From Leishmania mexicana MHOM/GT/2001/U1103 (Eukaryota; Euglenozoa; Kinetoplastea; Trypanosomatida; Trypanosomatidae): a stretch of DNA of 64,000 nt. The DNA lies in assembly GCF_000234665.1 (NCBI RefSeq), contig NC_018314.1:264130-328129 (forward strand). Direction: 5' to 3'. This document shows, piece by piece, positions 1,904 to 64,000 of the stretch. Numbering within the stretch: position 1 is the first letter of the stretch; the number at the start of each line of letters is the position of its first letter. Position numbers and translations under genes: made by a program. Under the pieces are notes generated by a model, which saw only the letters and a program-made list of their open reading frames with translations, did not search any database and was not told where the DNA came from.

Positions 1904-3433
1904 TCAGCGCTGCTCTGCGTGGTCGATCCGCCCCACACTCGCCGCGACAAGCTCCTCCATGCGCTTCTGGAACTCGTGCACGACGGCCTCGTCAAGGTTC
2001 CCGCCCGCCGTAGAGGCCTGCAGGGCTGCGTAGGTCTTCCGCAGCTGAGGCACGCTGTCGGCAGCCCGCAGCTGGGCCACCTGCCGGTACCGCTGGAAGA
2101 GCGCAGACGGCCGTGCATCGCACTTGTGCGTCTTGCAGAGGTCAGGCAAGCGCGTCGCGTCCATGCCTGGAAAAAACTGAAGTCCCGTGATACGCTGCAG
2201 TCGCTCGATCGGCACCTGGTACGCGGTGAGGGGCAGCTCCTCTATGATCGGTCCGTTGGGCATCATGAACGCCGCCACCGAGTGTGACCGGCCGCCGTTT
2301 TCCTCGGACAGAAACACCTTGAACAGATGGCTCGGCACAGCGACGAGGGTGCCACGCGCGGGGTGACCGGTGAGCTCGTACGTCATCATCAGCTTCACTG
2401 GAGCTGCGCTTTTCCACGGCGCCGCGCTCGCGTCCGCTGAGGACAGCGGCACATGGACTTCAGTGCCGTCCGGACGGTGCTCCACTCGCATGAGTCGGGG
2501 GACAAATGCGGGGCCGGTCACGACGTACAGCTTGCCACGGCTACTCGCGTCTTCCGCCTTGGTGGTATTCCCTGCTGGTGGGCTGTCGCCGCGTCGCCGG
2601 CCACGGCCAGGCTGCTGCTGCTGCTGCTGCTGCCCGACGCTCACCTCCTTGCTCAGCTTGCGCGTCAGGCCCTCCAGCCGCAGCCAATCCACCGCGTTCA
2701 GCGTCATGTCCTGCGGCACGACGTTCGCGTTCATGTTGAAGGTCGCATCCATCTCCGCCTGCGAGGCCTTGTGCAACTGCGCGGCGGCGAGGTGGCCGCG
2801 ACTCATGCCGCGTGACGTGTAGCTGTTGGGGCCGACGCGGAAGGCCGCGGGGACGGTGTCGTCGGCGTAGAAGTTGCTGCGGTTGCGCGAGACGTCGTCA
2901 CCACCGCGGGTGTCGTTGCACCCCTCTTCTTTGCCATGCGCGGCGTCGTCGTCCCTGTTAGCAGCGGCGGCTGCTGCCGGGGAGGAGGGTCGGCGCCCGG
3001 AGTGCAGCTTGCGGTAGTCAACCACCTCCATCACCCAGTTTGGGATGCGGCGCTCATAGTTGAGGCTGGCGAGGTAGCTGCCGTAGCAGCGCACCTCGGC
3101 AGTGGACGGCAGCCCGTGCGCCGCTGCCTCATTGCACTGCTGCAAGAAGCCGGCGGTGAGCGTGGAGGCGTGGGCGGGTGGTGTGTGAGGCGGCAGCACG
3201 ACAGGAAAGGCCAGCGTGGCATCACCTCCCACAGATCCCTGGCTGCTGCTGTCGCTGCCTGCGCCCCCGATCGACGGTGTAGCGGTGGCAGTCGTGACGA
3301 GAGAGCGGTTGGGCTGCACCACAAGCTGTGTGCGCTTGCTTGCCTGCGTGCTGTAGGTCCAGTAGGCGGTGACGCCGAAGAGAGCAACAGAAGCGGTGCC
3401 GAGCAGCCGGGCGATCGCTGCGCTGGCAGTCAT
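1904..3433 (-). CDS. Endonuclease G-like mitochondrial DNA/RNA non-specific nuclease
   Basis: 509 residues. It belongs to the metal-dependent DNA/RNA non-specific (beta-beta-alpha-metal) nucleases; family members sit in the mitochondrial intermembrane space and degrade DNA in cell death. Residues 1-30 form a hydrophobic signal-anchor (TASVALFGVTAYW) suited to mitochondrial targeting. The core starts near residue 118 (YGSYLASLNYERRIPNWV). The active-site motif reads SRGH at 211-214 instead of the usual DRGH, with the catalytic His kept. The metal-site region follows at about 231-252 (NVVPQ, then LNAVDW). The C-terminal half has the expected YVVTGP, VPSHLFKVFL and AFMMPN blocks. A seven-Gln run encoded by CAG codons (near 2615-2635) sits in a loop. 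The start at 3433 was chosen because it directly precedes the targeting segment; the frame stays open further upstream without a plausible sequence. Confidence 0.88.
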   Translation of the reverse strand: MTASAAIARLLGTASVALFGVTAYWTYSTQASKRTQLVVQPNRSLVTTATATPSIGGAGSDSSSQGSVGGDATLAFPVVLPPHTPPAHASTLTAGFLQQCNEAAAHGLPSTAEVRCYGSYLASLNYERRIPNWVMEVVDYRKLHSGRRPSSPAAAAAANRDDDAAHGKEEGCNDTRGGDDVSRNRSNFYADDTVPAAFRVGPNSYTSRGMSRGHLAAAQLHKASQAEMDATFNMNANVVPQDMTLNAVDWLRLEGLTRKLSKEVSVGQQQQQQQPGRGRRRGDSPPAGNTTKAEDASSRGKLYVVTGPAFVPRLMRVEHRPDGTEVHVPLSSADASAAPWKSAAPVKLMMTYELTGHPARGTLVAVPSHLFKVFLSEENGGRSHSVAAFMMPNGPIIEELPLTAYQVPIERLQRITGLQFFPGMDATRLPDLCKTHKCDARPSALFQRYRQVAQLRAADSVPQLRKTYAALQASTAGGNLDEAVVHEFQKRMEELVAASVGRIDHAEQR

Positions 3434-5013
3434 GCGGTCCTGATAAACCGTTTCGCGCAACGGACAAGGGAGCGACACGGCGAGAGACTCTCTCACGGAT
3501 ACGACTTGACGATAGGGGTGTTGTTGACGCGGTGGGCGTGCGGTCGCCGCCGCCCCCCGTTGGAACATGCAAGAGAGACACAAGCGCCGAGAGCGAAAAC
3601 CAGAAGGACGAGGAAGAGTAACTTCGTAGCGGGATCAGACAGAGACAGAGAGTGAAACAACGATGGCGTACGTGCGCACACAGCTCTCTCTGTGTGTGTG
3701 TGCTTGCCTGCGCCCGCTGCCGCTACTTTCCGGCACCTATGTCTACGGCGACGCCGGCGGACAGCGACGGATCACTGACACAGCCACCGACATGGACAGA
3801 CAGCCGTTTCGAAGAGTCTGGGGGATGCCGTAGGTTTTCTGGAGGAGGGTGCGACATACCTACACACACACACATACACACACACACGCACACAACGTGG
3901 CGAAAACAAGGCAGGGGAGGTGCAGTGCCGCTCTTCATCCGTCCTTGGCTCGGCTCCTGCACCGTCGTGCCTCGACACGTCGGTCTGGGGTCAAAAGCAT
4001 ATTCTTCTTTCGTCGTTTCTTTCACCTCGCACGTGCACAAGCACGCGATCAGCACACCCCGACGACTACATGCAGGGCGGCGATGATGGCGTTGCCGATG
4101 ACCATGATGGCGGGAACAACCCAGCTCACATAAGAGGTCCGATGAGAGGAGAACACCACGACGACGAAGAGCGGCGGGGCAGCGTCAACTCCCCCTTCCC
4201 CACCACCACCACTAACACAGACGAAGACGACGAGTTGCAAGCTGACGAGATACATGCACACAAACACTGCGAGCGAGCGAGGGAGCGAGAGGGAGAGGGA
4301 GGGAGACACGCGCGCACGCGCAACACGTGTGCCCCCCATACGGAGGGGACTTCTGATTTCCCTGTTTCTCGTCGTACCACATCCTCCCCTGACAAAGCAC
4401 CACACACACACACACGGGCAAGAGCAAGCACACAGAGGAGTCACGCAAGCAACGAGATGGCAAGGGCGGTCGAACCACCCACAACACACAAGAAGAAAAG
4501 CAGCGGTGGATTGGCGGGTGATGCGTGGGAGCTTGTCATTCCGGTGTCAGCGACTCTCGCTTCCTCTCCACAGATGTGTCTATGTCTGCAGGTGCTCCAC
4601 CTGGGTTGATGGAGGGGCTGGGGGGTGGGCGGCGGTCGTTGAACACCAGAAAACCGGCGCGCTCCGCTCCAGTCATGCACAACATACACAAGGCAATCGA
4701 CAGCACAGGATAACAATGATGGGGGTGGTGGGTGGGTGTGACGGGAAGACACCGAACAACGGAGGAGGAGATATAGGAAAGAAAGCAAGAAAACACACGA
4801 AACAGTGAAGGCAACGATGCACGTACTGGAGGGAGAGGGATGCTCGTGTGCATGCGCTTGCGTCTGTGTGTGTGTGTCTACGCGGATGTAGGCTTCGACC
4901 GATGTAGAAAGGCCTCGTGCCCCTCCCCCCCCCCCACACACACTGTGACGTTCACACCTCCTCCATACACGCGTACCCCCCTCTCCATCACTCCCTCCCT
5001 CCTCCCCCCACAC

Positions 5014-17727: not shown

Positions 17728-20700
17728 TCACTCCACCTCCCTTCTCACTGCGGTGGGAGAGCCCTCAGGCCGGTGGGGAGAGGACGGGCTTCCCTGTCCG
17801 GGCTCCACATTGACGTCACGTCGCTCGCTGCAGCCTCGCCGCTGCACTGGCTTGCCGTAAGAGGCAAAGACGCACGGCGGGGCCATTGCTCCGCTCTCTG
17901 CCGCTTGTGGTGACGTCGACGACGGTGCGTCACCTGGATCGCGGTGCGTCTCTGCCGCTGCCGCCGATGTCGATGATGCCGAAGTGCGCATCTGCATCAA
18001 TGCCAGCAGCTCCGGTGGGAGAGATGGTCGTTGGGCGGGTGAATGCACAAGAGAAGACGTGGAAGGTGGCGCGATGGTAGAGGTAGGCGGTCCCGTCCTT
18101 CGCGGCGGCGAGGCGATGAACGTGGCTAGGGGGAGTGGGGCCGTGGCAGAGGAAGAGGGGGACACCAGCGGCTCGATGGGGGCGGTGGGGAAGACGGGAC
18201 TAGCGAACAAGCGCAGCTCGTCGGCAAGAGTCGGCTGCGGCGCCGTAGAAGAGGTCCGGGGCTGGACCGGCTGGAGCTGTAGCATAAGCGACGCTGAGGC
18301 GCGAGAGCGGCCGCTGCTGGTGATGTGAAGGCTCTCCCTGCTCCTCCTCATGCTGCTGTCACTGCTCGTCCGACGCTGACGGCCGCTGTTGAGAGGAGAC
18401 GGAGAGGGAGCGTCAATGCGTCCGCCCAATGGCGTGGCAGCGCCCAGCGCGTACTCCAGCCCTGCCCCCACGGTGGGCGTCGCAAGGACGGAAGGTGATG
18501 AGCGCAGTGTGGAGAAGGACAAGGCGCGATTCGCACGGCGGCGGCCGCCAATGTCGCGAAGGCTGCCCCTGCCGCTGCCGCTGCCGAGACTGCGGCTCCG
18601 ACGAGAGGATCCACGCACGTGCTGCGCCCGCTGCTCAGCGGCACTGGCGATCGAGGTGGAGGGGAGAGACCGGGTTCTGAAGGCGTCTCGCGTCTCGCCG
18701 TGTCGCAGTGGGGCCTGGTTGAACTCGGTGGACGGCAGCGATAGCCGTCCGCTCGGCGTACGGGGCGCAAAGGGCGAGAGCGACAGGGGTGACGACGCCG
18801 GGAACGCCCACGACTGTCGCGGCGAGGGGGCGCGCTGCTCCGACGATAGAGGGATCCAGTGGGGACTGGTTTCCGCTGCTTCCTCGACACCGTCGCCGCG
18901 ACGGGGCGCATCGCCAGGCGAGAACGCATAGGGCGGCGGAGGCACGCGGTGCTGTCGCTGCTGACGTTGATGGGAGAGGGCAAGCGCAGTGGGGGTAGAA
19001 TACCCCGTTGGCCAACGCTCGACACTGCCGGTGTTGCTGTTGGCGACGGAGACGGGGGCGATGGCACTCCCGAACGTTAACCGCTGCGGCGCTACTCCTA
19101 AGGCCTCGCTGAAGCGACTGCCACTGCTGTCGGTGCGACTTATGCCGCGGACGCTGACGGATGGGGAGTGTATGCCCACGGACGAGTGTGACTGTCGCCG
19201 CCGCCGCCGTTTCTGCTGCTGCTTCCGCGGTGCCCAAGAGCGTCGCCGTGCCACCGCGCTGCCGTAGACCGCGCTGCTTGCCGCGTGCACGCCTCGTCCC
19301 TCGTCGTCTTCGCTACAACCGTCACCACCGCTCGTACGGATGCCGCCTCCACTCCCCGGAGAGGCCGCTGCTCCCGCCAGGAAAAAGCTGAGCGAGCCGG
19401 TGGAGCGCCGCGAAGGGGATGAGGGTGGGGAGGGCGGGGGCTGCCGGGAAGAGCGCGCCAGTTCGCATACCTTGGGTGTCAGCGCCCCCGTCGTCGAGCC
19501 GCCTCGCGCGTGCGTGAGGCGTGTCGTGCGAGCCAAGAGCTGAATGTCCTCCTCCTGCGAGAGCGACAGCCAGTTCGCACCGCTCGGCGCCGCTGTCGAG
19601 GTGCTGCCCCTCCAGGCGGGATGCACCTGCAGGAAGGAGCCGGAGCCGCGAAAGGGCGACGGATGCAAGGGTGAGGCCGCCGCCAGGGCGGCTTCTGCGA
19701 CCGCCGCCCTTGACGGGGTCACCATCAAGGTGGCAGACGCCCGCACTGCTGCAGGGGAGGCACAGACACCAGATAGACGCGTTGGTGTCATGCTGCTACT
19801 GCCGCGCGAGTGTACATCATCGCCGCCTTGCCCCCCTTCGCGGACAAGATGCTGAGGCTCGTGACCTTTACCAGGGCTGTGGCGGACGCCGCCGTTGTCG
19901 CACTTTCTCTTAGTCTGGTCGCACGGCGTCATGAGCCGCGCCGGCGCAGTGGGCGCTGGCGTGGGGAAGCGGCCGTATGGGTTCTGGTCGGCGGTCCCCA
20001 TCTTGATCTCGTCTTCGACGTCATCGCTGTCTTCTCTCATCGCGCGCGGACTCGTCCGCCCCCCAGTCGACATTGTGGAGGGAATCTGTGGATGGCGATG
20101 AAAGTTCCGCCTGCTGCTGTGATTGCTGGTCCCCTTCTCCTGCGAGCACGGCGTCGCCGTGGACCACGTGGACGCCTGCAGCAGCGACTGCAAACGTGTC
20201 TGCGTCGGAGTGGAGAAGATGGAGAGTATAGAGGACTGCTCGGAGGATTCCTCCGGAGTGGCGGTGACGGCCGTTGCTGTAGTGCCATGGTGGGTGTGCT
20301 CACTTCCGTTGGCTCTACCCCACGCAACGGTGCTCGCCATTGAGGCGTGTAGGCGCCGCTCGTCTGCGGATAGTGCGAGGCGGCCGGCGACTCGGTGCGG
20401 CGTGCAGGTGGAGGGCCCCGTTGTGGTCATGCTGGCGGCAGTCCCGCACCTGCCACGCGTCACGTCGAGCGGCGAAAGTGGCGACCTCGACAGGTTGCTG
20501 TCGGACACCACCTCGTCTTCCATGTCCATCAAATAACGAATGGCAGTCCGGATTTGCGAGGGCGGGCTGGAGGATGTCGACGCGGCACTTCTGCAAAGAG
20601 AGCTGCCGGCGCCATCGTCAGCGAGAACGGTCCATGACTGATGCCGACGGTTGTGGGGGTCGCACATGTAGCGGTCCTGAGCACCTACACGCGCCGTGGC

Positions 20701-23604
20701 CGTGCGGTGCGCCTTCTGCGCCGCGACGACGGCAGCGCCGTCGGCCCCGTTATCCGGCGAGAAGGAGAGACGGAGCATATCGGAGAGGTAGACCATCGGG
20801 GACGTCGTGGCGGCCACCGCCGGGGTGTTGGCGGAGTCACCGGCTTCGCCGACCTCCTCACATGCCGCGTCCACGTCGATGTCGCCAGCCTTCGTGACGG
20901 TGCGAAAGTGCCACGGAGCGGGTGACGAGGACGAGGACGAGGACAAGGACGCGGCGCGAGACAAGGGCAGCAGTTGGGGATCACGACGGCTGCGCACGCA
21001 ATCGTCGTCACATCCGCCCGCTGAGGCCGACGGCTTAAAAATCTCGCCATGTGGCTCCGCTGCGCCTGGGGTACCACTGCTGCGGTGACTGCCGCTCTCT
21101 TTGCCGGTACCGTCACTCGTGCCAGGGCTGGTGCGCCGCACAAACGGTATCTCCTCATCGACCGCCCCAGCGTCCTCCTCGAACACATCGCCCCGGTGCG
21201 CTTCTGATGTGCTTCTCTCGAAGTCGACATCATCGCGACTACTGCGCTCAGAGGCCGCCGTCCGCCCGGTTGCGCTCGCTGAAGGGCAGGGGCTGCAGCG
21301 GGACTCCAGCTTCCACGCACGATGGCCAACCGTGCCGGCCACCACTGCGGCAATCACGGCCTCTGGGTACGTTGCAGCGCCTGCGGGACTGTTGCAGGCG
21401 CTCACTCTGTTTCGGGGATGCGCAGACGCAGAGACTCCTCGACTGCTGTCGCCCAGGCACATTATTCCCTCTGCCCAGCACACCTCTTCGCTGGGCACCC
21501 GGCTTGATGGGACGACGTCTGTGAGTGCTGCGGTGGGCAGTGAAGGGCGACGCAAGTGATCCACCGGAATCGGTGACGGGAGAACTCCACAAGACGATGT
21601 CACCATGGTGTCGTCGACGTCGACAACACCCGCGGTAGCGAAGGAAAGGGGAACATGCAGAGAGGCGCTGCGCTCATCGCGATCGACGCGTATGGACGGC
21701 GATAGGAGCATCTGCGCCGCACGTGTGCTGACCGACGTCGCGTGTGGTGCTGCAGATCGCGACGCAACCACAGAGGATGCCGGCGTGGAGGACGGCGCAC
21801 CAGTAGTGCGCTGCGGTGCGGACGCTGTGTGGTGAGGATGCGCATCTTCTCCAACGGCTGCTGCTGGAGACGGCGACAGCTGCTGATCATCGCTGTGGGC
21901 CTGCGGTGCAGCGTCCGGTTGTGGACACCGCCTTTGCGCAGCTTGTCCTCTCTGCCACCACAATGGGAGATCGTGTTGCTGCGGTGACGGTGAGGTGCTC
22001 CCACGCCTGGGCGTTTGCGTCCAGGCGAGAGGCAAACCCCGAGCGACGACGACAGAGTCCGCGCGAATCTCGTCCGCGTCATGTGCGCCGGTTCCACGGA
22101 ACACGTACGGCGCAGCAGGAGCAGCAGCAGCTCGCCCTCGTCGTGGTCCCTCGCTCGCTGACCGATGAGCGTCTGGTGCGTCCGGGGAGAGAAGCATGTG
22201 CTCTGCCGTGGGTTGCTGTGGCCCTCTTGCGTCACCCATGCCGTCGTCAAAATCGAACGTGAGCAGCTCGAGCTGGCACTGCCACTCCAGAGTGCGTTGA
22301 AGCTGCTGCTGGTGCTGCTGCAGTCGTTCTCGTGTACCCACCTCGCCGTGGGCGCCAGCGCCGACTTCGTCGACCACCGCATTGGCATTGCCGCCACTCA
22401 CGCGTTGACGTGGGTGCCGCGAAAGAAGCCAGCGTGACTGCTGCAAGTTTTCCATGGCTGCCTCAGCTGGTGCGTCATCTCTACCGGCAAGGAAAGGCGA
22501 GTCGCGACCCATGAGGATGTAGTGGCGGTCAGTGTCGCTGGGAAGCGCGGTCGCCTCCGCCGTCTCCGTGGAAATCGCTCGAGTGACAGAAGGGCGTAGG
22601 GAGCTGACGGCGAGAGAGACGGCTGACGCGGTGTCGCGCGGCATCGAGGTGGACGCTGATGAAGCGATGGCGGGTGAGAAGGAGAGGGCCGCGGAGGAGG
22701 GCGGGAGGGAGGACAGGAGACGCGCCAACGGCTGCGGCGCAGCCTCCTCCGTCTGCCGCGTGGGGAGGGGTGTGGTGGTGCTGCCGGTGTTCGAGGGCGT
22801 TCCACCGTGTAAATCAGGGAGAGGCAGGGGCTGCGTGCTGCCACTGCGGCCGACGCGGTACTGCATGCGCTGCGGATCTGGCCGTGGCCGTCGCTGATGG
22901 TGATGGTGCGGTTGGCCGGTGCCCAGGGGTTGATGGGGCTGTTGCTGCTGCTGCGGCTGCTGACGGTGGTGATGGTGATGAACAGGCCCTACAGGGCTCG
23001 ACAGCGCCGCAGTTGACATCGGCGTGGGCGCCACCGACTCCGGTACGGGACGCTCCACCGCAGCGAGCCTGCCCTCCGAGGAGTCTGAGGGAAGAGCGGT
23101 TGAGTGGCCCGCAGACGTCGCGAAGCGTACCACGTGACGCCCAGGAATGTCGAGTTCCGCGTTCTGAGAGGCGTACGGTGCTGCTGACGACGGTGGTGTG
23201 CGAGCCGTCATCCAGCCACCAGCGGCAGCTGAAGGGGAAGCCTCATGTAGCCGTTTTGTCCGTGGAGATCCGGAGGCAAGTAGCGGCACCGGACGCGATG
23301 CATGAAGGCAGGTAATCTTTTCCCTCTGCCGGCGATGCAGCGTCACGAAGAGAGCAGTGTAGTCGAGCGGGCAGCTGCCGGGGTGCGGGGTGGGCAGAAA
23401 GGTGCGTGTGTGACCGGTGCACACGACCTCGAACTGAGGAGGCGGTGGCGGCTCGATGCCATCCATCGCCACAACCCCAACTTCCACACGCTCATAACGC
23501 GGACCCACCACGCAGACATGCGGCCCCAGGGTCTGCACGGCGCGTGTTGGGGCTACCCAGGCGTGCGTGAAGACATCGGGAGGTAGATAGTCTAGCGGAT
23601 TCAT
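17728..23604 (-). CDS. Very large low-complexity protein of unknown function
   Basis: 1958 residues from the ATG at 23604. The N-terminal 100 residues look ordered (MNPLDYLPPDVFTHAWVAPT, then VVGPRYERVEVGVVAMDGIE, then CPLDYTALFVTLHRRQREKI). The rest is dominated by Ser, Ala, Pro, Thr, Arg, His-His and Gln-Gln runs, with scattered short acidic or hydrophobic islands. I see no membrane segment, coiled coil of length or catalytic motif. Trypanosomatids have many such giant disordered proteins, often cytoskeletal or signalling scaffolds, but nothing here points to one role. The uninterrupted frame of 5.9 kb is itself the main coding evidence. Confidence 0.75.
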   Translation of the reverse strand: MNPLDYLPPDVFTHAWVAPTRAVQTLGPHVCVVGPRYERVEVGVVAMDGIEPPPPPQFEVVCTGHTRTFLPTPHPGSCPLDYTALFVTLHRRQREKITCLHASRPVPLLASGSPRTKRLHEASPSAAAGGWMTARTPPSSAAPYASQNAELDIPGRHVVRFATSAGHSTALPSDSSEGRLAAVERPVPESVAPTPMSTAALSSPVGPVHHHHHRQQPQQQQQPHQPLGTGQPHHHHQRRPRPDPQRMQYRVGRSGSTQPLPLPDLHGGTPSNTGSTTTPLPTRQTEEAAPQPLARLLSSLPPSSAALSFSPAIASSASTSMPRDTASAVSLAVSSLRPSVTRAISTETAEATALPSDTDRHYILMGRDSPFLAGRDDAPAEAAMENLQQSRWLLSRHPRQRVSGGNANAVVDEVGAGAHGEVGTRERLQQHQQQLQRTLEWQCQLELLTFDFDDGMGDARGPQQPTAEHMLLSPDAPDAHRSASEGPRRGRAAAAPAAPYVFRGTGAHDADEIRADSVVVARGLPLAWTQTPRRGSTSPSPQQHDLPLWWQRGQAAQRRCPQPDAAPQAHSDDQQLSPSPAAAVGEDAHPHHTASAPQRTTGAPSSTPASSVVASRSAAPHATSVSTRAAQMLLSPSIRVDRDERSASLHVPLSFATAGVVDVDDTMVTSSCGVLPSPIPVDHLRRPSLPTAALTDVVPSSRVPSEEVCWAEGIMCLGDSSRGVSASAHPRNRVSACNSPAGAATYPEAVIAAVVAGTVGHRAWKLESRCSPCPSASATGRTAASERSSRDDVDFERSTSEAHRGDVFEEDAGAVDEEIPFVRRTSPGTSDGTGKESGSHRSSGTPGAAEPHGEIFKPSASAGGCDDDCVRSRRDPQLLPLSRAASLSSSSSSSPAPWHFRTVTKAGDIDVDAACEEVGEAGDSANTPAVAATTSPMVYLSDMLRLSFSPDNGADGAAVVAAQKAHRTATARVGAQDRYMCDPHNRRHQSWTVLADDGAGSSLCRSAASTSSSPPSQIRTAIRYLMDMEDEVVSDSNLSRSPLSPLDVTRGRCGTAASMTTTGPSTCTPHRVAGRLALSADERRLHASMASTVAWGRANGSEHTHHGTTATAVTATPEESSEQSSILSIFSTPTQTRLQSLLQASTWSTATPCSQEKGTSNHSSRRNFHRHPQIPSTMSTGGRTSPRAMREDSDDVEDEIKMGTADQNPYGRFPTPAPTAPARLMTPCDQTKRKCDNGGVRHSPGKGHEPQHLVREGGQGGDDVHSRGSSSMTPTRLSGVCASPAAVRASATLMVTPSRAAVAEAALAAASPLHPSPFRGSGSFLQVHPAWRGSTSTAAPSGANWLSLSQEEDIQLLARTTRLTHARGGSTTGALTPKVCELARSSRQPPPSPPSSPSRRSTGSLSFFLAGAAASPGSGGGIRTSGGDGCSEDDEGRGVHAASSAVYGSAVARRRSWAPRKQQQKRRRRRQSHSSVGIHSPSVSVRGISRTDSSGSRFSEALGVAPQRLTFGSAIAPVSVANSNTGSVERWPTGYSTPTALALSHQRQQRQHRVPPPPYAFSPGDAPRRGDGVEEAAETSPHWIPLSSEQRAPSPRQSWAFPASSPLSLSPFAPRTPSGRLSLPSTEFNQAPLRHGETRDAFRTRSLPSTSIASAAEQRAQHVRGSSRRSRSLGSGSGRGSLRDIGGRRRANRALSFSTLRSSPSVLATPTVGAGLEYALGAATPLGGRIDAPSPSPLNSGRQRRTSSDSSMRRSRESLHITSSGRSRASASLMLQLQPVQPRTSSTAPQPTLADELRLFASPVFPTAPIEPLVSPSSSATAPLPLATFIASPPRRTGPPTSTIAPPSTSSLVHSPAQRPSLPPELLALMQMRTSASSTSAAAAETHRDPGDAPSSTSPQAAESGAMAPPCVFASYGKPVQRRGCSERRDVNVEPGQGSPSSPHRPEGSPTAVRREVE

Positions 23605-40729: not shown

Positions 40730-42046
40730 CTATAGAGTCTCGATGATACTGTATGTGCCGATAACCATGATGAGCACTCCCACGAGAAGGTACACGTAGC
40801 AGCGGATGCGCTTGAAGGTAACGCACGGCGTCGCAACGAAGATCTTCTTCCAGTACTGCAGCGTGTTGCGGTCCGCATCGGGGTACGCCACGGCATACTT
40901 CACATGCATGGCGAGGACCGACGGGATGATCATGACCATGCACACTGACGGCAGCGCGCCAATGAACGCGACGACGGTGTTGACGGCTGAGGTCGGCATC
41001 CCCATGGCCAGGGCCCAGATAACAAGATTGATGAGCAGACGGAGGCCGATGCCTATCCAGCTATGTGGTTTGCACCTCACCGTCTGGTCAATCAGCTGCA
41101 TCGCTGGCATGAACTGCACCGGGTAGGTGAAGATGAGGTTGAGCATAAAACACACGCGCACACTCGTACCCCACGGCGAGTGCGCCACCTTGGCCACCAG
41201 CGAGGTGGTCATGGAGTTGCCGTAGGCGAGGTAGCCAGTCAAGCCAAACAGTATGTACCAAGCAATCACGCCGATGATGACAAGGGTCGCCATCTTGAGC
41301 ACCAGCCGCTTCTTCGTGCAGGCGGCGTGCACCGGCAGGATGATGGCAATGCCCTCCAGCACCATCATGTTGTTGGCGAGGTTATTGAACCAGCCCACGG
41401 NNNNNNNNNNNNNNNNNNNNNNNNNNNNNNNNNNNNNNNNNNNNNNNNNNNNNNNNNNNNNNNNNNNNNNNNNNNNNNNNNNNNNNNNNNNNNNNNNNNN
41501 GCTGGCTGTACATGAGCAGAGCCCAACTGCGCAGGGCCATGCACNNAACAAGAACCAACNCAATCCGGCGCCGCACACGTAGCGGCACACTNGCGAGTAG
41601 GTGGTCACATCGCTGCGGTTGATCGTCACCTTCACATCCACCAGCATCCGCGTACAGTCGATGACGGCGGCGCCCATGAGGACGGTGAGGATCACAGAGA
41701 CTGCGTAGCCTGCATCGGGGTAGAAGGTGGGCAGTAGGTACACGCCGGTGCCGACGTTTGCTTTGAAGACGTGGAAGGCGGACTTGTAGATGTTTGTGTT
41801 CTCCTTTAGCTCACCGGCGGCGAGGCGGACGACAGTCGTGTCATCCTCGTCGTCTATTTCCAGGTACTCCTGCGCCTTCTGGTCGTTCTGGGGGACGGAG
41901 GGGTCGCCATGGCTCGCGTCCCCGTCGCCCTCCACCTCAGCCCCGCTCATGAAGTCCTCGATGAGGGTGCTGCGGTGATGTTCGTCCTCCATTTGCGTGA
42001 GATGTGCGGGTTCGTTGTCTGATGCGGTGCTCGGGAACCTGGTCAT
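40730..42046 (-). CDS. AAP24: Proline/alanine transporter AAP24, copy A (interrupted by assembly gap)
   Basis: Second copy of the permease at 43560-45026. The coding strand is broken by 100 N (41401-41500). By comparison with copy B the gap replaces 246 bases, about residues 184-265. Next to the gap the sequence has several single-base losses in homopolymers and four more N (41545-41546, 41560, 41592). This is poor contig-end sequence, so the apparent protein change there should be ignored. All other visible residues equal copy B except two in the cytosolic N-terminal tail: His23 (Arg in B) and Glu30 (Lys in B). Met1 and Met19 are both kept. The gene is probably intact in the organism. Confidence 0.9.
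   Translation of the reverse strand: MTRFPSTASDNEPAHLTQMEDEHHRSTLIEDFMSGAEVEGDGDASHGDPSVPQNDQKAQEYLEIDDEDDTTVVRLAAGELKENTNIYKSAFHVFKANVGTGVYLLPTFYPDAGYAVSVILTVLMGAAVIDCTRMLVDVKVTINRSDVTTYSXVCRYVCGAGLXWFLXXAWPCAVGLCSCTASXXXXXXXXXXXXXXXXXXXXXXXXXXXXXXXXXXVGWFNNLANNMMVLEGIAIILPVHAACTKKRLVLKMATLVIIGVIAWYILFGLTGYLAYGNSMTTSLVAKVAHSPWGTSVRVCFMLNLIFTYPVQFMPAMQLIDQTVRCKPHSWIGIGLRLLINLVIWALAMGMPTSAVNTVVAFIGALPSVCMVMIIPSVLAMHVKYAVAYPDADRNTLQYWKKIFVATPCVTFKRIRCYVYLLVGVLIMVIGTYSIIETL
41401..41500. other. Assembly gap (100 N) inside AAP24 copy A
   Basis: Placeholder gap; the intact copy predicts 246 missing bases. Scattered N and homopolymer losses follow to 41592. Confidence 0.97.
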
Positions 42047-43559: not shown

Positions 43560-45153
43560 CTATAGAGTCTCGATGATACTGTATGTGCCGATAACCATGA
43601 TGAGCACTCCCACGAGAAGGTACACGTAGCAGCGGATGCGCTTGAAGGTAACGCACGGCGTCGCAACGAAGATCTTCTTCCAGTACTGCAGCGTGTTGCG
43701 GTCCGCATCGGGGTACGCCACGGCATACTTCACATGCATGGCGAGGACCGACGGGATGATCATGACCATGCACACTGACGGCAGCGCGCCAATGAACGCG
43801 ACGACGGTGTTGACGGCTGAGGTCGGCATCCCCATGGCCAGGGCCCAGATAACAAGATTGATGAGCAGACGGAGGCCGATGCCTATCCAGCTATGTGGTT
43901 TGCACCTCACCGTCTGGTCAATCAGCTGCATCGCTGGCATGAACTGCACCGGGTAGGTGAAGATGAGGTTGAGCATAAAACACACGCGCACACTCGTACC
44001 CCACGGCGAGTGCGCCACCTTGGCCACCAGCGAGGTGGTCATGGAGTTGCCGTAGGCGAGGTAGCCAGTCAAGCCAAACAGTATGTACCAAGCAATCACG
44101 CCGATGATGACAAGGGTCGCCATCTTGAGCACCAGCCGCTTCTTCGTGCAGGCGGCGTGCACCGGCAGGATGATGGCAATGCCCTCCAGCACCATCATGT
44201 TGTTGGCGAGGTTATTGAACCAGCCCACGGGGATGCGGTTGCCGGCGACGTTGCAGCCCGGGTGAACACCGTCCTGGTTGAGCTGTACGAGCGACGTTGC
44301 GAAGCAGGATATGAGGGAGTAGAAGACACTGACGGTGGCGATGATGGAGCCGATGGCGAGCAGCGAGAGGTTGTCGGAAAAGCACGTCATGGGGAAGCAC
44401 AGGAAGAGCATCACCGACACCCACAAGTACTTGGAGCCCCTGAAGTTGACGAGGTCATCCATGGTGTCACCAAACAGCTGGCTGTACATGAGGCAGAAGC
44501 CAAACTGCGCAAGGGCCATGGCAACAAACAAGAACCAACCCAATCCGGCGCCGCACACGTAGCGGCACACCTGCGAGTAGGTGGTCACATCGCTGCGGTT
44601 GATCGTCACCTTCACATCCACCAGCATCCGCGTACAGTCGATGACGGCGGCGCCCATGAGGACGGTGAGGATCACAGAGACTGCGTAGCCTGCATCGGGG
44701 TAGAAGGTGGGCAGTAGGTACACGCCGGTGCCGACGTTTGCTTTGAAGACGTGGAAGGCGGACTTGTAGATGTTTGTGTTCTCCTTTAGCTCACCGGCGG
44801 CGAGGCGGACGACAGTCGTGTCATCCTCGTCGTCTATTTCCAGGTACTCCTGCGCCTTCTGGTCGTTCTGGGGGACGGAGGGGTCGCCATGGCTCGCGTC
44901 CCCGTCGCCCTCCACCTCAGCCCCGCTCATGAAGTCCTTGATGAGGGTGCTGCGGTGACGTTCGTCCTCCATTTGCGTGAGATGTGCGGGTTCGTTGTCT
45001 GATGCGGTGCTCGGGAACCTGGTCATGCGTGCGAGCAGGAGGTGGGTGGGTGGGGATGGGTGGGGCGGTCAATCGAATTGGGGGGAGGGGGAGGGGGGTT
45101 ATTGTGGTAAAGGGAAAATAAGGACGGGTCCAAAGGAAGGGGGGGGGGTGAGG
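42776..45153. repeat. Tandem duplication, unit B (AAP24 copy B with 3' UTR)
   Basis: Second copy of the unit at 39946-42172. The units are separated by about 600 bases of unshared spacer (42173-42775). Identity ends upstream of the gene in a poly-G/purine tract, where the two 5' flanks diverge. Confidence 0.93.
43560..45026 (-). CDS. AAP24: Proline/alanine transporter AAP24, copy B (intact)
   Basis: 488 residues, an amino acid/auxin permease (AAAP) family transporter of the plasma membrane. An acidic cytosolic tail of about 88 residues precedes the first membrane helix, which carries the family motif NVGTGVYLLP (97-106). About ten further hydrophobic helices run to the C-terminus (LLVGVLIMVIGTYSII). 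The first 18 residues are followed by Met19 (MEDERHRSTL). In L. donovani AAP24, alternative trans-splicing is reported to give a form lacking 18 N-terminal residues that carries proline only, while the long form carries proline and alanine. The same architecture here is strong support for the name. Tandem duplicates share the 3' UTR, so they are probably regulated alike post-transcriptionally. Confidence 0.93.
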   Translation of the reverse strand: MTRFPSTASDNEPAHLTQMEDERHRSTLIKDFMSGAEVEGDGDASHGDPSVPQNDQKAQEYLEIDDEDDTTVVRLAAGELKENTNIYKSAFHVFKANVGTGVYLLPTFYPDAGYAVSVILTVLMGAAVIDCTRMLVDVKVTINRSDVTTYSQVCRYVCGAGLGWFLFVAMALAQFGFCLMYSQLFGDTMDDLVNFRGSKYLWVSVMLFLCFPMTCFSDNLSLLAIGSIIATVSVFYSLISCFATSLVQLNQDGVHPGCNVAGNRIPVGWFNNLANNMMVLEGIAIILPVHAACTKKRLVLKMATLVIIGVIAWYILFGLTGYLAYGNSMTTSLVAKVAHSPWGTSVRVCFMLNLIFTYPVQFMPAMQLIDQTVRCKPHSWIGIGLRLLINLVIWALAMGMPTSAVNTVVAFIGALPSVCMVMIIPSVLAMHVKYAVAYPDADRNTLQYWKKIFVATPCVTFKRIRCYVYLLVGVLIMVIGTYSIIETL

Positions 45154-47064: not shown

Positions 47065-47910
47065 TCAAGCCTTCCGGCGGCGCTTGTGCCCCGGGGCGTT
47101 GGGGTTCTCCCGCTCGTAGAAGCGTTGGAGGAGGCTGATGGCCTCTGCCTCGGTATGACCGCCCTCACTCACGTACCCGGGCCACCACTCACCACTACAG
47201 ACGACCCCACCCTCATCAGCGCTGGGCGAGCCCTTCGACGTGCCCACGAAGTGTGGCATGCTGGCTGCTGACTGATCTGGTTGCGAAGGCTGTTGCAGCA
47301 GCCGCTGCTGTTGAAAAGGTGACGTGTGCAGCGCCAAGACGGTGCCGTTGCCGCCAAAGCGCGGGTTTCGACAGCCGAAAAAGACGTGAGCGATACGGTT
47401 GTAGAGCAGCATCGCACCGCACATCACGCACGGTTCAACAGTGACGTAGAGGACATAGTCAGCCAGGCCGGACAGTGGCGGGGTAGTTGGTGAGGAGGTC
47501 GATCCGCTTTCTTTCTCTTCCTCAACGAGTCCGTTCTCTCCTTCGCCAGCACCGGCTTTACTTGACCTCGCACCCGCGCTTCCGTCTCCGCCTCTCGTTG
47601 CACTATCGATAAGCTTCTGAGCGGCGATGAACTCTGCGTGGGCCAGGGCATGGTGCTGCAGATTCGTTTGATTACGGCCACGCGCAGCGATGCACGACTC
47701 GACCAGCTGGTCGCAGCTGAGCGGCGGGGCTGCGTGAGGTGACGCATTGACCACATCGTCCGACAGCTGCAGCGCGAGCTTCGCGTACACCGTTTCATTG
47801 GTGTCCGTGCGCACCAGCACGCAGCCAACAGGCACTTCACCCTCTTCCAGCGCCAGCTCGGCTTCCTTGAGGGCCGCGCGCATGAAGGCATCGACATAGT
47901 GCACAGACAT
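47065..47910 (-). CDS. ADAT2: tRNA adenosine deaminase subunit ADAT2
   Basis: 281 residues. With ADAT3 it forms the enzyme that converts A34 to inosine in the anticodon wobble position of tRNAs; ADAT2 is the catalytic subunit. Zinc and catalytic residues are present: HAE at 91-93 (Glu93 as proton shuttle) and PCVMC at 160-164 in the context TVEPCVMCGAMLLYNRIAHV. The N-terminal VDAFMRAALKEAELALEEGE and VPVGCVLV are typical of the family. A charged insert of about 45 residues (105-150) separates the two zinc motifs, and a Gln/Ser-rich insert lies near 188-220. The C-terminus ends in the basic KRRRKA; the T. brucei enzyme also has a C-terminal Lys/Arg region used for tRNA binding. The start at 47910 follows a T-run and AG 42 bases upstream. 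Confidence 0.93.
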   Translation of the reverse strand: MSVHYVDAFMRAALKEAELALEEGEVPVGCVLVRTDTNETVYAKLALQLSDDVVNASPHAAPPLSCDQLVESCIAARGRNQTNLQHHALAHAEFIAAQKLIDSATRGGDGSAGARSSKAGAGEGENGLVEEEKESGSTSSPTTPPLSGLADYVLYVTVEPCVMCGAMLLYNRIAHVFFGCRNPRFGGNGTVLALHTSPFQQQRLLQQPSQPDQSAASMPHFVGTSKGSPSADEGGVVCSGEWWPGYVSEGGHTEAEAISLLQRFYERENPNAPGHKRRRKA

Positions 47911-47951
47911 CGATGCCGGAGGCCCGCAACCCCCGTGCCCGTCTTCACTCG

Positions 47952-47961
47952 CTAAAAAAAA
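47952..47961 (-). promoter_or_regulatory. Predicted trans-splice signal for ADAT2
   Basis: A run of eight T on the minus strand is immediately followed by AG at 47952-47953, 42 bases before the ATG at 47910. Confidence 0.55.
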
Positions 47962-49109
47962 GGCCAGTGGGACGGCAAGCGTGCACCGCGCAGCGACGGC
48001 GCACGAGTGGGAGGGGGGAAGGCGAGGAGGTCCACTGACACACGATTGCCGCGGTGAAAGACAATGGACACAGTATAAGAGGTCGGGGAAGGGCAGAGGA
48101 AGGGAAGGGAGGGGGGGGGTAGTGCTTCGATTTTCACTGACATATGCGCCATCACATGGAATGCGTGGCACACAGCCAAGCTGAGGTCCGCACATCCAGG
48201 AACCAACACAAGTTCACATGGAGGGAGCGCGCGCGTGATGCTGCGGGAGAAGCTTCCCTCCCTCCCTCCTCATCCGCTCTTCTCTGGTTCGCTGCAGTGG
48301 CGGAGGCGGGGGGGGAGGGCAAGAGAAGGACCAAGAGACGCAGAGCATGTCAGCCACTCTCGCTCCGCCATGTGTGCTCACCCTGCCAGACCGTTCGTGC
48401 TTGTTTGTTTTCGGCTTCTCTCGCCTTTTTCCGCGCCTCCTCTTCGCCGGCGACTGCCCCCGTGCTCAGAGGGCATGACTTTAGAGGATGGCGGAAGCAT
48501 GCGAGAGTAAAGGAAACAGGCAGTCTGGATATCACATGGGACCACACATCATGGGGAGGCGCACACGCACATGTGTGTGTGCCTGCGCGTGCGTGGGCTC
48601 TGCTGTCTCCGAGATATGGTTTCCCTCTTGTTGTTTATCTAAAGCTGTAGGCGTAACACAGACAACCATACGACGGAGGAGGACATCGCCGCCCACACTT
48701 TACCACCGCGGCCCCCCTCTCAGCGGCCATTTTCTGTTGGTAACGACGAGCGCACTCTGGCAGCCCTACTCCCCGCCCCGCAACACACACACGCACATGA
48801 CGCACATCGAGCGGAGTAGAAGGAGAGCAAACACGTGAATGCCGACAAACAACCCCCCCGCACCATCCCTCAAGCCCCCCAAAACCCCAAAGAAAATGCC
48901 TCTCTGTCGTTCGTTCGACGACCAACCATGCGGACTGGCGGGCATCAGGGTAGGTGCATAGGTATAGATGGATTTGTATGTATACATGATTTACTGTTCT
49001 GTGCTTGCCGTCGATGGGGTCTGTATTCTTCCTACCATCGCCGCAGCGTTTGTCTTCCCCTCCTCTTCCTCCCGCCGCCTCTTGTTGCGCTCTCTCGACT
49101 TCGACGCCG

Positions 49110-60460: not shown

Positions 60461-62359
60461 TTACGGCTGCTCCACTACTACTTCTCCGCCTTCTGCTGCC
60501 AGCGCGGCCACCACGCGTCCAACGGCGTCACCGCATCCGTACTGGAAGGCGGAGAAGTTCACGTGCGTGTAGCCGCGAGCGCGGAGGTCGCGCACAATGT
60601 CCACCGTGATGGCCGCCATCCGCTCCTGGAAGTCGGTCTCCGCCCTCTCCTTCGCCTCTACATACGCATCGATCGCGTGGGAAGACACTACGCTGCGCAG
60701 CGTCTCCACCGCGGTGTGCAGAGCCCCCTCATACTCGCGCAACGCACGCCGGAATGGCGCACTCGGGATAACCTTGAGCTGCAGCGTCGAGCGCAGAAAC
60801 TGTTCCCCCCGCAGCGGCGCCATCAACCCCGGCACTACGACGAGAGAGGGCGATGATGACGGCAGCGCCGACGCTGCTTTTGACTGCAAGCATGGCACAC
60901 TCGCTCCCCTCGCCTCGGCGGCGGCGGCGCCATCTCTGTCGTGGGTGCACAGAACGCCTCTGGCGGGCGGTGCCGACGAGCGCAGCGCGCTCCGTATGTC
61001 CTCTACGTAATCGAAAAACTCTGTGGCAGAGGTGATCATCTGCGTCACGACCACGCGGGCGCCTGCACTGCCACACCCGTCCCAAGCGCCGTCTGCGACG
61101 CATTGCCGCGTTCCAGGTGGTCTGAGAAACGCCTTGTCCGCAACTGTCCGCCGCGTGCATGCGGCGCGCACGCTTGGCGGGTAGTAGGACGGCGTTGTCC
61201 ACAGACGACGCACGGCGCCGAGGCGAGTGAAAAGTGCTTCAGCTGCCTCCACACAGGACTCGAGCGACGGAGGACGTGGGTCACTGTGTGTTCCCTGGGC
61301 CCGCCGAAGCTGCGCCTCCGTGTCGGCAAAGACAGTGTCTACTTCGTCAAGAAAACGAAGCGAGGCCAACGTCTGGCAGGGCGAGGATGACTGCGCCGAC
61401 GGCACAGCCGCAGCGGTCGCGGCATCGGCTCCCTCTTGTGCGGCTCCCCATTGTCGGTCCAGCACATGGCCCTGCGGGTACCCGCCTACGCACAGGCATA
61501 CAGCTGCGCCAGCAGACTCGCCACCGGCGATTTTAGGTATCGCTTCACCGTCGCGACTTCTGAGAGTGGAGTGGACAAAGCCCAGAAAATCAACGCCATC
61601 CGCGAAGTCGACGTACGGGTTTGGGGACGGCGACGGGGAGGGGACCGACGCGGATGCTCCGTCCTTCTGCGCGGCTATCATGCGCTGCCGGGTGTACCCG
61701 CCGTCATCACCGCGCAAGACCATCAGACCACGGCTGCGGTGGCGAGCCGCTGGGCCCAGCTCGGTAGCGGGTGCTGTCGAGGTGCGGCCGATGAAGTCAG
61801 CTAGGACGGCGGCTGTTCCGCCCCGGCTCGCACCCGTCAGCGTCGCTGTCGTCGTCGTCCGCTCTGTAGAAACAGAAGAAGAGGATGTGTGCTGCTTCGG
61901 ATGCTGCTGCGAGTCCCGATTTCCCCCTTGTGTGCTCTGCACCGACTCCGCGTGGCGCGTGGCGCGCGTGGCGGTGACAGTGAGGACAAGACCCACATCT
62001 GCCGCGACACATTGGTGGAGGTATGAGAGTGCCTGTTGGGTTGCAGACACCTCCGTCGCGTTCGCCGACTCGTCTGCGGTGTCCGCTGCAGCGGAGGTGA
62101 AGTACGGGCTGTAGCTCGTGCAGGTGATAAAGGTCGGGTGTGGGACGTGGCGCAGCAGCGTACTGATGTGTGTCTCAAAGGCCGGGGTGGCGGCTGGAGC
62201 GGGTGGCGGCACCACGACGAAGCTGTAGGATATGTGGCGCGGCGCTGCAGCGGCATGTTCAGTGGTGATCTTTGCCACACTGTAGTTTTGACCAGCAAAG
62301 AGCGGCAGTGTGGGCTGCAGCAGCTGTAGGTGACGCCATAGCGGCGGGGTACTTATCAT
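60461..62359 (-). CDS. Divergent methylenetetrahydrofolate reductase (MTHFR)-like protein
   Basis: 632 residues from the ATG at 62359 (the frame upstream begins only with a non-ATG codon). MTHFR is a flavin TIM barrel reducing methylene-THF. The barrel landmarks occur in order: strand 1 with PPP at 51-53, LRGD at 215-218, GGYPQGH at 292-298, VVVTQM at 436-441, VVVPGL at 507-512, and a last strand near HVNFSAF. The spacing of strand 1 to FITCTS fits E. coli MetF closely. LRGD and the Tyr/His of YPQGH match flavin-contact residues. The position of the catalytic Glu (F-E-F-F-P-P in MetF) is Val48, and the MetF flavin-loop His is also not seen. A private insert of about 135 residues separates GGYPQGH from VVVTQM. 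It lacks the C-terminal regulatory domain of eukaryotic MTHFR. A paralogue follows to the right. Confidence 0.72.
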   Translation of the reverse strand: MISTPPLWRHLQLLQPTLPLFAGQNYSVAKITTEHAAAAPRHISYSFVVVPPPAPAATPAFETHISTLLRHVPHPTFITCTSYSPYFTSAAADTADESANATEVSATQQALSYLHQCVAADVGLVLTVTATRATRHAESVQSTQGGNRDSQQHPKQHTSSSSVSTERTTTTATLTGASRGGTAAVLADFIGRTSTAPATELGPAARHRSRGLMVLRGDDGGYTRQRMIAAQKDGASASVPSPSPSPNPYVDFADGVDFLGFVHSTLRSRDGEAIPKIAGGESAGAAVCLCVGGYPQGHVLDRQWGAAQEGADAATAAAVPSAQSSSPCQTLASLRFLDEVDTVFADTEAQLRRAQGTHSDPRPPSLESCVEAAEALFTRLGAVRRLWTTPSYYPPSVRAACTRRTVADKAFLRPPGTRQCVADGAWDGCGSAGARVVVTQMITSATEFFDYVEDIRSALRSSAPPARGVLCTHDRDGAAAAEARGASVPCLQSKAASALPSSSPSLVVVPGLMAPLRGEQFLRSTLQLKVIPSAPFRRALREYEGALHTAVETLRSVVSSHAIDAYVEAKERAETDFQERMAAITVDIVRDLRARGYTHVNFSAFQYGCGDAVGRVVAALAAEGGEVVVEQP

Positions 62360-63012: not shown

Positions 63013-64000
63013 TCACTGCTCCGTGGACGCACGACGCTGTGCATCGTAGGCCGCCAGCAGCTGCGCCACTCGCACATCCACCTTGTCGTTGAACATTGTG
63101 AAGAGGTGCACCCGCGCCTGCCCATGTCGCTGAAGGTCGTGGAGGAGATCCACTGTCTCCGACAGCCACAAAGACGTGAGGCGGCAAGACGCGCAACGCC
63201 GTACCTCACGTACGCGCGCTTCAACTTGGGCAACGCAATCCTCGCTGACCTCTAGTGTCGCCGCAGAGACGTCGCTCTCCGTCAGTGCTTGCAAGAAGGT
63301 GTCGTCCTGCAGCGCCGGCTCCCTTTTCCTCCGAGGGTGCTCGTCGGCGAGCTGCCGCCATGCGCTCATGAGCTCGCTCGCGTACACCTCCAGGGCTTTC
63401 TGCATGCGCGCGCTGGGAATCACTTTGGTGTAGTACAGCGACCGCAGCAGTACGTGCACATCGGTAAGATGTGGCAGCAGCACACCAGGGATGACGGAGA
63501 TGGGTGAGAGTACGGTCGGTGCGGCTGCGTGTAGGGGGTGCTGCTGTTGGGGATCGTCACCAGCCGGCTCCGGCTGCTCTCCACACGCTGCAGTGGCGGC
63601 CCAAACACCCAGCCCACGCTGTATTTCTGCCACGAAGTCCGTAAACTCCTTCGCTGTTGTGATCATCTGCGTCACAATCACGGGGGCTGCGGCGCCATTG
63701 TGCAAGCTGCCTCGCCGAATGCAACGATGCTGGAGCTCGCCAGGTGACCTCAGCAGCACCTTCTCGCGGAGCATTCGATGTATACAGGCGGCTCGCACAT
63801 GGGGCTCGTAGCTGGAGGAGGACGTCCATAGTCGCCGCACCGCACCGAGTCGTCCCAGGGTGCGGCACAGCTCCTTTAGCTCGGGCATGACAACCGGCGG
63901 CGTGGAAAGGTGCCGCGCACGCGCACTGGGCTCGTCGGAGGCCGCGGATGGAGCACCATCATTGACACTGGTATCGCTGGACCTCTTCTCGGCCGGTACC
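63013..64000 (-). CDS. Second MTHFR-like protein (5' end beyond the window)
   Basis: The frame is open from the stop at 63013 to the right edge; the N-terminal part is outside. The visible 328 or so residues align with the C-terminal half of the neighbour: the RLGAVRRLWT insert motif, a basic stretch, VIVTQMITTAKEFTDFVAEI, VIPGVLLPHL, a YTKVIPSARMQKALE block and a final strand HLFTMFND. Identity is patchy, so the duplication is old. The position equivalent to the catalytic Glu cannot be seen. A low-complexity stretch rich in Ser, Ala and Pro lies at the visible N-terminal end (63889-64000). Probably the same family and general role as the neighbour. Confidence 0.72.
   Translation of the reverse strand, partial: VPAEKRSSDTSVNDGAPSAASDEPSARARHLSTPPVVMPELKELCRTLGRLGAVRRLWTSSSSYEPHVRAACIHRMLREKVLLRSPGELQHRCIRRGSLHNGAAAPVIVTQMITTAKEFTDFVAEIQRGLGVWAATAACGEQPEPAGDDPQQQHPLHAAAPTVLSPISVIPGVLLPHLTDVHVLLRSLYYTKVIPSARMQKALEVYASELMSAWRQLADEHPRRKREPALQDDTFLQALTESDVSAATLEVSEDCVAQVEARVREVRRCASCRLTSLWLSETVDLLHDLQRHGQARVHLFTMFNDKVDVRVAQLLAAYDAQRRASTEQ

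Follow-up and report, generated by a model that had tools for sequence, protein, structure and literature searches.

The closest described relatives of the protein reported here are the methylenetetrahydrofolate reductases (MTHFRs), of which the FAD-dependent type (MetF; PF02219) is represented by PDB entries 7th5, 3apy, 1b5t and 6fcx. According to the available sections of PMC11094777, an acid occupies the same position in all three types of methylene-tetrahydropterin reductase; this strand-1 Glu is the proposed proton donor to the substrate and is near-essential in each type, a Glu to Gln exchange lowering k_cat to ∼0.01%, 0.2% and 0.4%, respectively. Asp120 and Gln183 hold the pterin ring. 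Departures from the MTHFR scheme mentioned in the accessible part of PMC13001107 include FMN-type MetF with partner proteins, flavin-free Mfr and a Sphingobium enzyme running in reverse. Here I describe a gene of Leishmania mexicana MHOM/GT/2001/U1103, located in a 64,000-nucleotide stretch of contig NC_018314.1 (positions 264,130 to 328,129; hereafter the window), whose product is predicted to adopt the MTHFR fold with Val at the position of the catalytic Glu. I consider it probable that this protein (the target; Table 1) is an MTHFR paralogue strongly conserved in the Leishmaniinae, which is no longer a methylenetetrahydrofolate reductase and has kept a ligand pocket.

The open reading frame (ORF) is coding, since protein searches retrieved 15 further family members across genera: named Leishmania species, Novymonas, Leptomonas and Lotmaria, plus three others (P0011, P0015 and P0016). 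All 15 are annotated as hypothetical or are unnamed. The target is 86% identical to its homologue in L. donovani and 84% to that in L. major, which is presumably LmjF.10.0760, an assignment based on gene order only. These identities and the numbering of the contig, C10, suggest that the window belongs to chromosome 10 of L. mexicana. No published description of the target or of its tandem neighbour (see below) was found among the papers listed in searches on MTHFR in Leishmania and trypanosomatids, on MTHFR pseudoenzymes and on the locus tags, carried out at title and abstract level and with subscription literature mostly outside their scope; the locus-tag search matched only LmjF.10.0780, a separate gene, and three papers retrieved on MTHFR pseudoenzymes deal with other topics. 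Leishmania MTHFR itself was reportedly the subject of a 2006 study by Vickers.

The genome holds one intact canonical MTHFR gene, on contig C20 (L001:1483-2412), encoding a protein of 309 residues of the same fold (PF02219, E = 6.4e-93), with the Glu in SYEFYPPR and no long insertion, so that the cell could retain MTHFR activity in spite of the Glu loss in the target. A third MTHFR-like sequence (C20:774335-775040; L002 and L003) is in two pieces, has an in-frame stop within one match and looks like a decayed gene. This last example would make it conceivable that the target is also a decaying, functionless MTHFR pseudogene; that reading is highly improbable and was rejected, as it is contradicted by the full-length frame, the relatives in many species and the 89 invariant columns in the alignment of 16 proteins (target included) on which all target-family counts given here are based. 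Many of these columns lie within the motifs by which the initial annotation had recognized an MTHFR-fold protein, all of which are present in the translation.

By the simpler tests, the sequence signal is faint. The PF02219 search that the initial annotation suggested did give a match at E = 0.0016, with a score of 18.3 bits under the curated cut-off of 24, and NCBIfam matches fell far under their cut-offs (12.6 bits against 310 for TIGR00677). No MTHFR was found among PDB sequences either by phmmer with the target, which returned RecA alone at E = 1, or by the target-family profile, which returned three unrelated matches at E > 1. Untrimmed, hhalign (E-values each for a single pairwise comparison) aligned the target family to seven MTHFRs over 39 columns with a probability of 15% and E = 0.0018. 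When the target-only profile was trimmed, its real score was reached by none of 200 column shuffles but by 29 of 200 shuffles of 30-column blocks; since the local score stems from one strand-1 block, this comparison does not test motif order. A joint profile of the target and neighbour families gave E = 3.8e-06 against MTHFR untrimmed and E = 3e-11 once columns with less than 50% occupancy were removed, a score reached by none of 60 column, 60 60-block and 60 100-block shuffles. The structural model of the target is a MetF-like (beta-alpha)8 barrel that matches MTHFR structures at the fold level (VIA-align). Joint profile and fold match together bear out the predicted fold, and indicate that target and MTHFR are homologous with the motifs in the correct order.

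The likeness to FAD-dependent MTHFR extends almost from end to end of the barrel, and includes the Arg-Gly-Asp of loop L4, the YPxxH and TQ motifs, and the Asp and Gln that anchor the pterin. Unlike these enzymes, the target lacks the catalytic Glu and the strand-3 His, has an extra Asp (Asp219) and ∼115 additional residues between strands 4 and 5, and scores below the Pfam cut-off. Luciferase-like Mer was considered and rejected, and so were proline dehydrogenase-like barrels, with none among the 50 fold matches listed, a negative limited to those rows. Cthe_2304 of Clostridium thermocellum (3ijd), whose PDB title records two bound methyl-tetrahydrofolate (methyl-THF) molecules, is 10% identical to the target and offers a further precedent for departure from the MTHFR scheme; I found no primary publication for the Sphingobium MTHFR structures or, among the matches listed, for Cthe_2304.

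Val48 had been placed at the position of E. coli Glu28, and both the target and the joint profile alignments agree, pairing SYSFVVVPPP with SFEFFPPR so that Ser46 falls on Ser26, Val48 on Glu28, and Pro51 and Pro52 on Pro31 and Pro32. Among the VIA-align rows, only those starting just before strand 1 test this register, the others starting earlier or being numbered differently. In the informative rows, model residue 42 pairs with E. coli residue 22 (1zrq_C, 1zpt_C, 3fst_C, 1zp4_C and 1b5t_B) or 41 with 21 (2fmn_C and 1zp3_C), and residue 43 pairs with residue 4 of M. hassiacum Mfr (8bgr) and residue 1 of M. jannaschii Mer (8qpm_A). Given an ungapped strand 1, these pairs put Val48 on Glu28, Glu9 and Glu6, respectively (Glu numbers from the available sections of PMC11094777). 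Position 48 is Val in 13 family members and Ala in the other three, with no Asp, Glu or Gln; as the loss is fixed in all 16, it is neither a sequencing nor an annotation slip. The flavin-loop His near strand 3 is likewise gone, as first noticed in the target, with no His at residues 120–134 in any member. The same sections of PMC11094777 describe the FAD-independent mycobacterial Mfr (MSMEG_6649; 7wmx and 8bgr) as active with Glu9, an acid that the target is without. The target very probably has no MTHFR activity: because the strand-1 acid is absent, methylene-THF would not be activated to the iminium ion, and the folate half-reaction would be off.

Arg216, Gly217, Asp218, Gln440, Thr81, Ala434 and His298 are conserved in 16/16 members, Tyr294 in 15 (the remaining one is gapped there) and Lys409 in 15. 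Asp218 and Gln440 correspond to the pterin-holding Asp120 and Gln183, and the statement that the folate-contact Gln of VVVTQ persists holds for the entire family. Both would be superfluous for a pure scaffold. It is accordingly doubtful that the protein is a structural or regulatory pseudoenzyme, its barrel serving as a ligand-free scaffold or as a partner for canonical MTHFR or the tandem paralogue, a proposal that would fit the loss of Glu and strand-3 His and the large insertion not seen in canonical MTHFR. Binding of a pterin or folate by the target is reasonably probable. For flavin, I take the FAD shell of MTHFR to comprise Thr59, His88, Arg118, Tyr152, His156, Asp165, Asn168, Arg171 and Lys172 (E. 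coli numbering). Equivalents of the Thr, the Arg and His156 are found in 16/16 members and of the Tyr and Lys in 15/16, and the strand-3 His is missing. The flavin contacts named in the initial annotation (Arg216, His298, Tyr294) are thus retained, but the full shell apparently only in part, and the chance that the target binds flavin is slightly short of even.

Other positions set the family apart from its neighbours. Asp219, directly after the pterin Asp, is present in all 16 members and in none of nine neighbour proteins, which have Thr, Ser or Ala there; Glu519 is found in 15 members (Asp in one) versus His in all nine neighbours; and Arg132, Tyr607, Cys609, Lys570 and Glu574 are invariant in the target family and different in the neighbours. 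This pattern suggests selection for a specific, different pocket, not decay. Asp219, missed by the initial annotation, is a candidate relocated acid. The strongest rival to the reading preferred here, although an unlikely one, is thus an active flavoenzyme in which Asp219 or Glu519 delivers the proton for redox chemistry on a different reduced pterin or folate, such as a biopterin derivative. The position of Asp219 beside Asp218, the conserved flavin contacts (Thr81 included) and the salvage of folates and pterins by trypanosomatids (accessible part of PMC10874023) speak for it; the single acid position common to the three reductases compared in PMC11094777, and the loss of His88 and several ADP contacts, speak against it.

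The interval between His298 and Ala434 spans 135 residues, compared with 20 in E. coli, is mostly helical in the target model and is common to the tandem paralogue; the ∼115 extra residues of the pair lie on the ADP side of the flavin site. One distant relative, P0015 (908 aa; 34% identity in the 16-member alignment), carries large low-complexity inserts and despite these keeps the pocket motifs, among them the additional Asp and the Val that replaces the Glu.

The neighbouring gene, for which the L. major homologue is LMJF_10_0770, encodes a second MTHFR-like protein. Alignment of the two families gives E = 6.6e-53 over 491 columns, or 2e-48 when the Leptomonas member is left out, which makes them homologous; they also have the insertion in common, hence their duplication probably followed departure from the MTHFR line. 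Locus tags of target and neighbour are adjacent in L. martiniquensis (LSCM1_07074/07075), Novymonas (NESM_000381200/000381100) and Leptomonas seymouri (ABL78_3313/3312). The LMJF_10_0770 family shares many motifs with the target, and differs by an S/T-x-E at strand 1, by the absence of Asp219 and of a Thr59 equivalent, and by an RVHLFTMFN ending that is nearer to MTHFR. PF02219 matches seven of its nine proteins at E ≤ 10, with a best E of 3.1e-07. The S/T-x-E occurs in all seven whose sequence extends to strand 1; the L. major and L. infantum proteins, as annotated, start further downstream, through either a missing strand or the annotation. The joint alignment places Glu43 of neighbour P0025 opposite Glu28, and the S/T-x-E is spaced as in canonical MTHFR. 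When the neighbour family was run alone in hhalign, strand 1 was not aligned with MTHFR, and the start pairs of the neighbour model (38 with E. coli 21, 40 with Mfr 4, 40 with Mer 1) fit Ser45 at the Glu28 site and Glu43 two residues earlier, in a model of low confidence (pLDDT 57.3, pTM 0.54). On balance the neighbour likely keeps the catalytic Glu. A plasmid search with the neighbour fragment gave no match.

In L. seymouri, the target (P0012) and neighbour (P0026) proteins match without exception along two stretches, of 39 and 32 residues, over the strand-5/Gln183 region, while outside target residues 361–480 they are identical at 106 of 407 aligned positions (∼26%). Gene conversion is the likely origin, or else misassembly.

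These comparisons suggest a previously undescribed pair of folate- or pterin-binding proteins. The target would hold a reduced pterin or folate through Asp218 and Gln440, perhaps beside a loosely bound flavin, and could act with or beside the S/T-x-E neighbour, in a heteromer or a shared step, as a subunit for binding, sensing or redox chemistry. That the two are physical partners is somewhat unlikely. A precedent for MTHFR with a partner protein is found in the acetogens (MetF with MetV and RnfC2; accessible part of PMC13001107), whose partners supply NADH or iron-sulfur sites and show no sign of resembling the target. More speculatively, and with little expectation of being right, the pair, one member with and one without the strand-1 Glu, could form a two-subunit flavin/pterin protein specific to the Leishmaniinae. 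Such a protein would sense a reduced pterin (biopterin or methyl-THF) or act on it through a reaction different from methylene-THF reduction, and Asp219 would be its new acid.

Several points weigh against a non-MTHFR paralogue with a retained pocket. Taken alone, the target family is weak by sequence (E = 0.002, compared with 1.5e-06 for the neighbour alone), and the neighbour family contributes much of the joint signal. The model has pLDDT below 50 for 204 of 632 residues, and MTHFR structures were part of the PDB data used to train AlphaFold. The flavin contacts appear partial: His88 is gone, and Asp165, Asn168 and Arg171 are unmatched in a poorly alignable helix of uncertain register. Asp219 or another acid could functionally substitute for Glu28. 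Finally, no neighbour was listed from either Lotmaria or Leptomonas pyrrhocoris, so that the pairing may not be universal, although the single-fragment search could have missed it there. The initial annotation, which doubted that the usual reduction takes place, is supported in this by the lost Glu and His; the pseudoenzyme and the enzyme with new chemistry that it suggested both stay candidates, and it had overlooked the tandem paralogue and the insertion. A family with its pterin anchors kept and Val or Ala fixed at the strand-1 Glu tests what this fold can do without the acid, and the pair would represent two further one-carbon- or pterin-related genes in parasites reliant on salvaged folate and pterin.

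Table 1. Features of the target gene and of the remainder of the window (window positions).
Feature	Position	Strand	Remarks
Target gene, MTHFR-fold protein without catalytic Glu	60461..62359	-	ATG start, 632 codons/632 aa
Strand 1 motif SYSFVVVPPP, residues 44-53	62201..62230	-	V48 codon 62216-62218, Glu28 position
Strand 2/loop motif FITCTSYSPYF, residues 77-87	62099..62131	-	T81 aligns with E. coli Thr59, 16/16
Strand 3 motif VLTVTATRAT, residues 125-134	61958..61987	-	Flavin-loop His missing, 16/16
Loop L4 motif VLRGDDGG, residues 214-221	61697..61720	-	D218 = Asp120 of pterin site; D219 extra acid
GGYPQGH, residues 292-298	61466..61486	-	Tyr152 and His156 equivalents
Insertion, residues 299-433	61061..61465	-	135 residues vs 20 in E. 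coli MetF; contains K409 (Lys172-like)
Strand 5 motif VVVTQMI, residues 436-442	61034..61054	-	Q440 = folate-contact Gln183
Tandem MTHFR-like paralogue, 3' part only	63013..63999	-	Cut by window end; sequence beyond reads N
Two amino-acid transporter genes (PF01490)	40730-42046 and 43560-45026	-	Same cluster
Cytidine/deoxycytidylate-type deaminase domains	47065-48195	-	PF14437, PF00383
Very long ORFs, 1946 and 1958 aa	53456-59296 and 17728-23604	-	No Pfam match at E ≤ 0.01
DNA/RNA non-specific endonuclease	1904-3568	-	PF01223, E = 4.6e-39

Among the other genes of the window, the endonuclease is probably the EndoG that is named LmjF.10.0610 in the available part of PMC3417670.
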